Program-made: the position numbers and the translations under genes | Source: Glycomyces algeriensis | GTDB lineage: Bacteria; Actinomycetota; Actinomycetes; Mycobacteriales; Micromonosporaceae | Assembly (NCBI RefSeq): GCF_027622855.1 | Contig: NZ_JAPZVR010000001.1 | Coordinates: 110,664 to 174,663 of the forward strand | Length of the DNA stretch: 64,000 bases | Direction: 5' to 3' | Shown here: piece by piece, positions 40,166 through 45,311 of the stretch | How positions within the stretch are numbered: the first letter of the stretch is position 1 | Layout: each line of letters starts with the position of its first letter | The notes under the pieces: model-generated | What the model was told of the DNA's origin: nothing | The model's database searches: none | What the model saw: the letters and a program-made list of their open reading frames with translations, nothing else

Positions 40166-40631
40166 GTCTAAGGGGTGAACTCCGCAAGGCTAGCAGGGGA
40201 ACTCAAACACTATGGACCGCTTGGGATCTGGGCATCGCCCGCTCCAGAGGTTCACGCCCCGTGAAACACCGACGGCACTGGAATCCGAAATGGCCGCCCA
40301 AAGGCGTTCGGGGGGCGGCCTCGCACCCTCCACCTCCCCGTGAACTGGTTCGCCGAGTCCTGGAGATCGGGAATTCTGGCGCGATTGCGCTGGGTGGATG
40401 GTGGCCGCGCCGGTCGCTCAGGTCCGGGTGGTACGAGCGGGATCATTGCGGCTGTGCGGGCCGCTGCCCATCCGGATTTGACCTGCGCAGACGCGTTCAT
40501 CGGCATACCCGTGTGCGGAATTCCTGCCGATTTCCCGCCGGTTCACCGCCTCGATATCGCTGCCGTTCGCTGTTGTACTGGAATCTCGAACACCGAGGCG
40601 GCCTCGCGCCGCCCGAACGACTGGAGCGAAC
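40166..40631. other. Divergent region upstream of the peptide-P450 pair
   Basis: About 465 bases between the YbaB gene and the small peptide gene. A GC-rich hairpin with 8-base arms (40292-40299 and 40313-40320) is visible. Frames through it are open on the plus strand but have no protein character. The promoter of the peptide-P450 unit should lie in the last 150 bases; I could not fix its boxes. Confidence 0.5.
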
Positions 40632-40718
40632 ATGGCAAGTCTGATCAAGGCATACCTGCTCAGCGCCCTCGGCGGGTCGGTCCGGCCCGCCGACTACCGG
40701 CTGCCCTACCCCAAGTAA
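40632..40718 (+). CDS. Candidate RiPP precursor peptide (28 residues)
   Basis: A tiny ORF with an excellent ribosome binding site (GGAG, 7 bases before the ATG). It ends in TAA only 2 bases before the ATG of the P450 gene. The peptide starts MASLIKAYLLSALGG, a short amphipathic leader-like helix ending in a Gly-Gly pair, and ends ADYRLPYPK. The end is enriched in residues that P450s cross-link (two Tyr four residues apart) and in Pro. P450-modified RiPPs such as the biarylitides, cittilins and tryptorubin have just this layout, a very small precursor immediately upstream of one P450. I do not recognise this core sequence. Peptide and P450 pairing is seen directly; the RiPP function is inferred. 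Confidence 0.75.
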   Translation: MASLIKAYLLSALGGSVRPADYRLPYPK

Positions 40719-40720
40719 CC

Positions 40721-42043
40721 ATGGATCCCAACGGTCGCGGCGCCGACATTCGGACGTCCCCCGCAGCCGAAGGCGGCTCGCGGGCGTCGACGACCCGCCC
40801 CCCAGGACCGGCGCCGCGACCGTTGGGACTGCCCCCCAAAGACTTCGACCGCGACCCTGTGGCGTGCCTGGCGCGACTGCGGGACGAATACGGCGACGTG
40901 TGCGCCTTCGCCACCGGCAAGGTTCTGCTCTCCCGTCCCGAATGGACGCACTGGGCGCTTGCCCGCAGCAACGGCGCGACCGTTGCCCAGCAGATCGAGG
41001 AGCCGCGGCAGTTCCAGCGCCCGGACCTCATCCGTGACCACGTCGAGACCTGGATGGCCGCCCGCCGCACCGCGCAATGGCATCGGCTCGGCCGCGACGT
41101 CGCAGAGCGGACGGCCCCGGTCATCCGCCTGCGCCTCCGGGACTTCATGGACGCCTCGGGGGATTCCCCGGCCAGTCTGGCTGATTGCCAGCTCGCCGTG
41201 CTCGACGCCGCCGGAAGCGTGTTCGTCCGGGATCTGGAGGGCTCGCTGCGAAGCGCCCTCATCGCCGCCGCCGACGCGCTCCAGAAGGGGGCCATGGCAT
41301 CGTTCACGTTGCCGTACTGGCTCTCCCCTCGGACGCGCCGCCGCCTGCGCTGCAACACCGTCTGGATTGAAGCCCTCGTCGCGCACGTCGGGGCGCGCCG
41401 AACCTCGCGGGATGCGGCCGAACCGCCCTCCGACCTGCTCGACCTGCTCCTCGACGCCCGCGACGGCGACCGTCCCGCGTTCTCCGATCTCGCAGTAGCG
41501 CAGGCGCTGTCGATCAATCTCGGCAACCTCTACACCGTCGGCGGGACCGGCCTGGCATGGCTGCTGACGGCCTATGGTGAACACGACATCGTCCGACCCG
41601 AGGCGGTCGGCGCCGAAGACTGGGCACGCGTAGTCGTGAAGGAGACCCTGCGGCTGTATCCATCGGTCTCGCTCACCAGCCGAACCTTGTCGGAGGACGC
41701 CGAGTTCGGGGACGTCACGGTCCCGGCGGGCGACTCGGTCTTCCTCAGTCCGCTGCTGCTCCACACCGACCCGCGCTGGTGGCGCGAGGATCCGAGCCGA
41801 TTCGACCCGGCGCGATGGCTCGCCGAGGAGGTCCACGACCCGCACGCGTACCTGCCCTACGGCGCGGGCCCGCGGATCTGCACCGGTGTCCACATCTCGA
41901 ACGCCGTGCTGGAGGCCGCCGCCGACCTGCTCGCGGACCGAGCGGTGACGGGGTACTCGGGTCTCCCCAAGCGTCGGTGGGGATCGATCACGCAGCCAAA
42001 GAGGCTCCGCGTCCGCATAGGCCGCGGCACCGGGTCCAGCTGA
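40721..42043 (+). CDS. Cytochrome P450, probable peptide-modifying enzyme
   Basis: A 440-residue soluble P450. The start is the ATG at 40721; the longer open frame would run through the peptide gene in another frame. Motifs: I-helix region NLYTVGGTGLAWLL, ExxR in VVKETLRLYPS and the heme loop YGAGPRICTG with Cys387 as thiolate ligand. The I-helix lacks the usual AGxxT consensus, with GGTG instead. No ferredoxin or reductase gene is adjacent, as is common for RiPP P450s. Two bases separate it from the peptide gene, so the two should be co-translated. It probably forms a C-C, C-O or C-N cross-link in the peptide; an unrelated small-molecule role cannot be excluded. No export gene is adjacent. 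Confidence 0.85.
   Translation: MDPNGRGADIRTSPAAEGGSRASTTRPPGPAPRPLGLPPKDFDRDPVACLARLRDEYGDVCAFATGKVLLSRPEWTHWALARSNGATVAQQIEEPRQFQRPDLIRDHVETWMAARRTAQWHRLGRDVAERTAPVIRLRLRDFMDASGDSPASLADCQLAVLDAAGSVFVRDLEGSLRSALIAAADALQKGAMASFTLPYWLSPRTRRRLRCNTVWIEALVAHVGARRTSRDAAEPPSDLLDLLLDARDGDRPAFSDLAVAQALSINLGNLYTVGGTGLAWLLTAYGEHDIVRPEAVGAEDWARVVVKETLRLYPSVSLTSRTLSEDAEFGDVTVPAGDSVFLSPLLLHTDPRWWREDPSRFDPARWLAEEVHDPHAYLPYGAGPRICTGVHISNAVLEAAADLLADRAVTGYSGLPKRRWGSITQPKRLRVRIGRGTGSS

Positions 42044-42291: not shown

Positions 42292-45311
<3,020 letters not shown>

Follow-up and report, generated by a model that had tools for sequence, protein, structure and literature searches.

A short tyrosine-containing peptide gene beside a cytochrome P450 gene in Glycomyces: a candidate minimal P450-modified RiPP pair

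Does the very small open reading frame (ORF) that ends just before a cytochrome P450 gene of Glycomyces algeriensis encode the substrate of this enzyme, and what would the enzyme do to it? The question was raised by a sequence-only reading of the window, i.e. the whole stretch of 64,000 nucleotides analysed here, to which coordinates refer unless a genome is named. It had described a tiny ORF with a GGAG ribosome-binding site that ends 2 bases before a P450 gene and had interpreted the pair as a new P450-modified RiPP. The layout was borne out. The ORF MASLIKAYLLSALGGSVRPADYRLPYPK of 28 amino acids occupies 40632-40718 of the forward strand with its stop codon at 40716-40718. A gap of 2 nt follows, then the ATG of the P450 at 40721; the P450 stop codon ends at 42043. 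The small ORF and the adjoining P450 gene, as first described, are confirmed to be real. The features of the locus are as follows.

40522..40553, forward strand: conserved element TCCTGCCG-n3-TCCCGCCGGT-n4-GCCTCG, aligned in 9 of 9 loci and without mismatch in the window
40570..40582, forward strand: conserved CTGnTGTACTnGA block, from the alignment of nine upstream regions
40597..40613, forward strand: inverted repeat GGCGGC-CTCGC-GCCGCC just 5′ of the ribosome-binding site, read from the sequence, its position kept in alignments
40623..40626, forward strand: ribosome-binding site of the precursor gene, suitably spaced from its start, read from the sequence, GGAG in 9 of 9 loci
40632..40694, forward strand: precursor leader, residues 1-21 (predicted boundary), with M1, L4, A7, G14 and G15 invariant in eight distinct peptides
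40695..40718, forward strand: core YRLPYPK, residues 22-28, and stop codon (predicted core boundary), both Tyr unchanged in all eight distinct peptides
40721..42043, forward strand: cytochrome P450 of 440 amino acids, predicted peptide cross-linking enzyme, from PF00067, homologues and the tree
41534..41539, forward strand: I-helix site with Glu-Thr replaced by Thr272-Val273, from the P450 alignment and genome comparison
41879..41881, forward strand: heme-ligand Cys387 in YGAGPRICTG, invariant in 20 of 20 aligned P450s

The occurrence of the pair was assessed by searching the window P450 against 151 related genomes, 19 of which contained a match at E <= 1e-30. Close P450s (64-100% identity) were found at nine loci in 8 of the 22 Glycomyces genomes. 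They comprise the window P450, a second copy in the same genome with 66% identity, and homologues in seven further Glycomyces genomes with 64-88% identity. Distant P450s are carried by one further Glycomyces genome (G011, 33% identity) and by ten genomes from other genera (32-38% identity). The sequence-only reading had proposed two comparisons, namely to look for a small ORF upstream of the closest P450 homologues and to align the peptide ends for conservation of both Tyr and of LPYP. A small ORF with GGAG is located directly 5′ of the P450 at all nine close loci. The precursor stop is placed 2 nt before the P450 start at eight of them, and at locus L011 stop and start overlap by one base (TAATG, read from the sequence).

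Eight distinct peptides are encoded: that of the window, MALIKAFMLNAFGGSVKPASYPLPYPK, MALVKAFLINAFGGTVRPANYRLPYAQ, MRSLVKAAAVRAVGGKQGTRGWYAWHYWL (at two loci), MKSLFRALVARAVGGKVVTRHYYRLHYPE, MRSLAKAAVARIIGGKVTAGRWYVAYYTE, MRSLAKAFAARVVGGKVAKRSWYSLYYME and MRSLVKAAVARAIGGKVTAGRWYVAYYTD, the last being the precursor of the second copy in the window's genome. The invariant columns of their alignment are M1, L4, A7, G14, G15, Y22 and Y26. The core thus keeps the pattern Y-x-x-x-Y, while all three inner columns vary, with Trp, Ala, His or Tyr occurring between the core Tyr. The first core Tyr is preceded by Trp or Tyr in five of the eight peptides. LPYP is present in two of the eight and LPYA in a third, so the expected conservation was found for both Tyr but not for LPYP. 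The core of the window peptide has no aromatic residue besides the two Tyr, and the same is true of its two closest relatives.

To the peptide profile built from these eight sequences, the 22 Glycomyces genomes gave nine matches at E <= 5.4e-13, which are the nine P450 loci; the next best match had an E value of 0.023. A hold-out profile of five rows, from which the window's subgroup was omitted, was used to rank 1502 translated frames. The three omitted precursors took ranks 1, 2 and 3, with E values (0.23, 0.39 and 1.2) that are individually not significant. With profile matches confined to the P450 loci and this held-out ranking, a chance ORF was set aside. The window precursor showed no match in NCBIfam or Pfam.

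The sequence-only reading had also named the pattern of synonymous and nonsynonymous changes as a way to refute coding, and here the outcome was divided. The P450 is clearly constrained (pN well below pS), but the precursor shows pN similar to pS in most pairs. Changes by codon position in the window's subgroup were 18, 12 and 10 (three pairs, 78 codon comparisons), without third-position excess; in the pair L013/L026 they were 1, 2 and 7, which is a third-position excess. Differences between peptides were milder than expected from random placement in five of eight tested pairs (P < 0.05), and the other three pairs were not significant (P 0.078, 0.15 and 0.14).

Two further copies of the locus deserve mention. 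The second pair of the window's genome (G000:C19:5800-7754; L110, L026) has the core WYVAYYTD, and its nearest relative is the copy in G005. The reading frame of its P450 has no stop and continues into a CBS-domain-like protein (621 amino acids in total); the closest relative of this P450 stops at 445 amino acids. Locus L118 (G012:C20, minus strand) is a decayed copy, in which promoter, untranslated region and ribosome-binding site are joined to the last part of the P450, and neither the peptide gene nor the greater part of the P450 is left.

The P450 matches PF00067 (E 1.1e-31, 110.6 bits against a cut-off of 22.8) and carries ETLR and YGAGPRICTG motifs. Its I-helix reads LYTVGGTG, with T272-V273 where E-T is expected, and the acid-alcohol pair is absent. 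Four other P450s of the same genome were examined and keep this pair, in the form AGHET or AGQET. The earlier observation of a modified I-helix (GGTG) was thus confirmed. At this site the second-copy P450 has A-V, and relatives beyond the genus have G-V or similar. For 20 of 20 aligned P450s the nearest NCBIfam model is ApyO, to which the window P450 scores 85 bits, the cut-off being 525. In a structure model of middling confidence (mean pLDDT 71.5), the P450 resembles P450s in general. Comparison of the fold returned ordinary P450s only, with 7wzl (CYP184A1) as the best match (TM 0.69), and gave no specific lead; a sequence search of solved structures with the P450 likewise gave no specific lead.

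The place of this enzyme among P450s was examined with a maximum-likelihood tree of 36 P450s, which includes long control rows, contains no atropopeptide P450s and has a midpoint root for drawing only. One branch of this tree unites 27 peptide-linked P450s (support 99/99). The nine Glycomyces P450s nest inside it (100/100) on a stem of 1.58 changes per column. A candidate small ORF with aromatic residues precedes each of the 27, and in related genera most of these ORFs end ...GRYPYWFYNY; the 27 include L020, for whose candidate ORF no ribosome-binding site was flagged. The core type tracks the P450 tree. Nine of 11 distant P450 loci follow ORFs such as MARVLRHVAARLMGRSQVSGRYPYWFYGYEQ, and the remaining two have candidate ORFs ending WPPEHFYG and WYYYPIY. 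Some of the distant-clade peptide ORFs end at least 50 bases before the P450 match region.

Within this clade a sister family, found in the same GTDB family but outside Glycomyces, shares with the window a P450 of about 30-34% identity, the gene order, the absent acid-alcohol pair and a similar short leader with ...ARL.G.... Its precursors end GRY[PIM]YW[FLP]Y-x-Y, with a core of Tyr-x-Tyr-Trp-x-Tyr-x-Tyr in contrast to Tyr-x3-Tyr. At the sister-family loci L015-L019, L021-L024 and L052-L071 the peptide ends GRYPYWFYNY or GRYIYWPYHY. A mixed profile of sister-type peptides and four Glycomyces peptides was searched over 250 genomes of the GTDB family. At E <= 1e-7 it matched strongly in 18 genomes from outside Glycomyces, and nine of these genomes were also the source of profile rows or of identical peptides. 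Alignment A3 has 12 members, among them four Glycomyces peptides other than that of the window, and NCBIfam gave no match to any of the 12.

When 197 genomes of the class were searched with a profile, one more member was recovered from beyond the family, L123 with 449 bits; the next score was 216 bits. The L123 P450 likewise lacks the acid-alcohol motif, and 26 of 28 further inspected loci have the canonical motif. A single-sequence search of 396 genomes of the phylum, with four candidates scored per genome, returned the own genome only, a result that says little.

Several individual loci carry other candidate precursors. L123 (G802:C436:21760-22989) has the upstream ORF MTKIMTLTVLRLNRGKMGGRYHWATPTG, with the candidate precursor end ...GGRYHWATPTG. 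Clade P450s are accompanied by the candidate precursors ...GRNQWPPEHFYG at L020 (G011:C1) and ...RGTWYYYPIY at L025 (G056:C1). A weak profile match, L074 (G603:C21:343315-343389, E 0.004), is an ORF ending MKTYARHLTARLFGRTRMGGLYLYWAFGK and looks like a further precursor type. Paired precursor-like matches about 1.5 kb apart were observed at G569:C1:22596-24241, G569:C9:2536826-2538471, G583:C1:2316801-2318430 and G558:C1:1712126-1713758, as if these clusters had two peptide genes each.

How far the conserved locus extends was assessed by comparing window ORFs of at least 70 amino acids, from 30000 to 56000, with five named Glycomyces loci including 6 kb on either side. At E <= 1e-8 only the ORFs overlapping the peptide and P450 genes matched the five loci, and the conserved unit is therefore the two genes with their promoter region. 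A cluster larger than two genes was set aside, since no other window ORF is conserved in the five named loci. Ten neighbouring ORFs were chosen mechanically for a domain scan. The upstream neighbours encode type VII secretion-like small proteins, a YbaB-like protein and a CHAT-TPR protein. Directly downstream, on the other strand (42292-45287), an esterase-like and a cellulase-like ORF follow, both of secreted type and both with ricin-type lectin domains. None of the ten scanned neighbours looks dedicated. The earlier statement that no protease is adjacent has to be qualified: the minus-strand ORF 42292-43617 passes the Peptidase_S9 cut-off (33.7 bits against 22.6), yet its scores as a PHB-type esterase (55.6) and for a ricin-type lectin domain (106.6) are higher. 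It was not found in the loci of the five named relatives.

The element at 40522-40553 consists of heptamer-like repeats with 11-base spacing and is a probable activator or promoter site. This spacing presumably resembles that of SARP-type sites. The CTGnTGTACTnGA block is a possible -10 region. The pattern of the upstream element was found at 23 sites in 10 of the 22 Glycomyces genomes, and the reversed-pattern control gave none. Nine of these sites precede precursors, one precedes the decayed copy of G012, and 13 are located elsewhere, several of them before lipoprotein-like or membrane-protein-like ORFs. The element may mark a regulon of the genus Glycomyces.

Judged by these comparisons of sequence, the two genes probably constitute a minimal P450-modified RiPP cluster in which the P450 would couple Tyr22 to Tyr26, the predicted cross-link sites of the core. 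Precursor and P450 would be translated together. The leader would bind the P450 and the C-terminus of the peptide would reach the heme, where the enzyme would take one hydrogen each from Tyr22 and Tyr26 and the rings would be coupled (C-C or C-O-C). Coupling would give a five-residue ring and a loss of 2 Da, and the leader would then be removed by a protease encoded elsewhere. The calculated [M+H]+ would thereby shift from 3050.686 to 3048.670 for the full precursor, from 936.530 to 934.514 for YRLPYPK and from 1122.594 to 1120.579 for ADYRLPYPK. In the window peptide and its two nearest relatives, whose cores have no aromatics besides Tyr22 and Tyr26, any ring formed between aromatic side chains must join these residues. 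The missing acid-alcohol pair would fit coupling better than oxygen insertion. The interpretation as a P450-modified RiPP is supported by the small ORF upstream of all nine P450s and by the two invariant core Tyr. Several points count against this reading, among them the divided codon test and a structure model of middling confidence that fits P450s in general. Cross-link spacings of one to three residues are reported in the available parts of PMC11002830 and PMC12352619, four is not among these, and the ring size of an i,i+4 Tyr coupling is without precedent in these accounts; in addition, ApyO is a distant match. We tentatively suggest a broader picture, in which the genus-specific P450 family on its long branch would form a Tyr-Tyr bond four apart and a five-residue ring whose interior is free to vary between species, and the surrounding clade, with at least four core types, would be one scaffold re-aimed at different aromatic patterns.

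Of the other explanations, the one that stands best is that the pair belongs, as a core variant, to a P450-RiPP class that has already been listed (one of 11 classes, or the set of cyptide P450s). We regard this as possible, if somewhat doubtful. The available text of PMC12299652 reports 1057 P450-modified RiPP clusters in 11 classes and that of PMC13417212 places 787 P450s in other cyptide classes; with more than 1000 mined clusters in the former and supplementary tables out of reach, a prior listing is quite possible. However, the definitions of atropopeptides and biarylitides do not describe the window peptide (see below), and the long separate stem of the nine Glycomyces P450s (1.58 changes per column, 100/100) also argues against a listed class. 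Six peptide strings from the family and the sister family were not found printed in the searchable literature, a scope outside of which lie supplementary tables and most subscription papers. Within that searchable literature, only unrelated work mentions Glycomyces together with RiPPs, cytochrome P450s and a precursor peptide.

The pair could also be a P450-RiPP system with another chemistry: the P450 would bond a Tyr to the backbone or a non-aromatic residue, or would hydroxylate, and the second Tyr would serve recognition. This appears unlikely. Both Tyr are invariant while the inner residues all vary, a pattern that suits a pair of reacting residues better than a single one, and the usual oxygen-activating pair is missing from the I-helix. 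On the other hand, a conserved Tyr could serve binding instead, and the Trp or Tyr before the first core Tyr in five of the eight peptides means that the bond pattern could differ among members; several P450-RiPP enzymes bond a backbone nitrogen or also hydroxylate, according to the available part of PMC11002830. Very improbable is a translated regulatory leader, where the small ORF would couple translation to a P450 whose substrate is an unrelated small molecule and the peptide would have no further role: stop and start that nearly touch at all nine loci, as in translational coupling, the inverted repeat before the ribosome-binding site and the weak codon test in the window's subgroup would agree with it, whereas conserved residues at fixed positions at both peptide ends, the two invariant Tyr and the distant-clade peptides that share a related leader and differ in their aromatic tails speak against it, and coupling alone does not explain peptides that end at least 50 bases before the P450 match region.

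If the Tyr22-Tyr26 bond of the favoured coupling reading is real, it would add a further ring size to the ribosomal aryl-bridged peptides. The system behind it would be very small, with two genes only, and every position between the Tyr varies in nature. Such an enzyme would be a useful biocatalyst and a model for substrate reading by P450s of this kind. The loss of the acid-alcohol pair, combined with an aromatic peptide gene upstream, could serve as a simple search rule for more systems; it held in the sets examined here and needs a wider test.

One of the closest known systems is that of the aminopyruvatide P450 ApyO, by which two Tyr in a ribosomal peptide are coupled (YLY; PMC13192836 and PMC11002830, available parts). 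ApyO is the nearest NCBIfam model of the window P450, and Tyr-Tyr coupling is also what is predicted for the latter. It joins Tyr two apart, whereas those of the window peptide are four apart, and the window P450 does not reach the cut-off of the model. Aminopyruvatide precursors have a C-terminal Asp, with aromatics second and fourth from the C-terminus; the window peptide ends PK. An MNIO with its partner protein, a B12-radical SAM enzyme and a methyltransferase belong to their clusters, and none of these was found among the ten ORFs scanned around the window pair. Membership was set aside on account of the ApyO score, the peptide C-terminus and the missing MNIO and B12-radical SAM neighbours.

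The atropopeptides (tryptorubin family) likewise need only two genes, one for a short precursor and one for a P450, and they are released by proteases encoded outside the cluster. In the available text of PMC11450843 they are defined by a KSLK leader motif at residues 17-20 and a Trp at core position 2. Residues 17-20 of the window peptide are VRPA, KSLK occurs nowhere in it, and it has no Trp; membership was set aside. A KSLK...AWY DNA pattern gave no matches in 396 genomes. Biarylitides have the same minimal layout of precursor and P450, and their aryl bridge is made by the P450. Their precursor has five residues, encoded by a gene of 18 bp (PMC13417212, available part). Biarylitide membership was set aside because the precursor of the window has 28 residues.

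Cittilin has the core YIYY. Cittilin-type peptides have Tyr-rich cores cross-linked by a P450, and their spacing and leader appear to differ from those of the window peptide. A cittilin-type RiPP class (shandoamide, syrinamides, citreamide) is named in the available part of PMC12352619. Cyptides, in the available text of PMC12299652, is the umbrella term for RiPPs with aryl bridges made by P450s. Two features of P450-modified RiPPs in general are present: a short precursor ORF is conserved beside the P450 at nine of nine loci, and the eight distinct peptides have a conserved leader and conserved core aromatics. The RiPP had been called new, and this is supported for the precursor as a new subfamily but not for the arrangement of peptide gene and P450, which is an already known kind of P450-modified RiPP layout.
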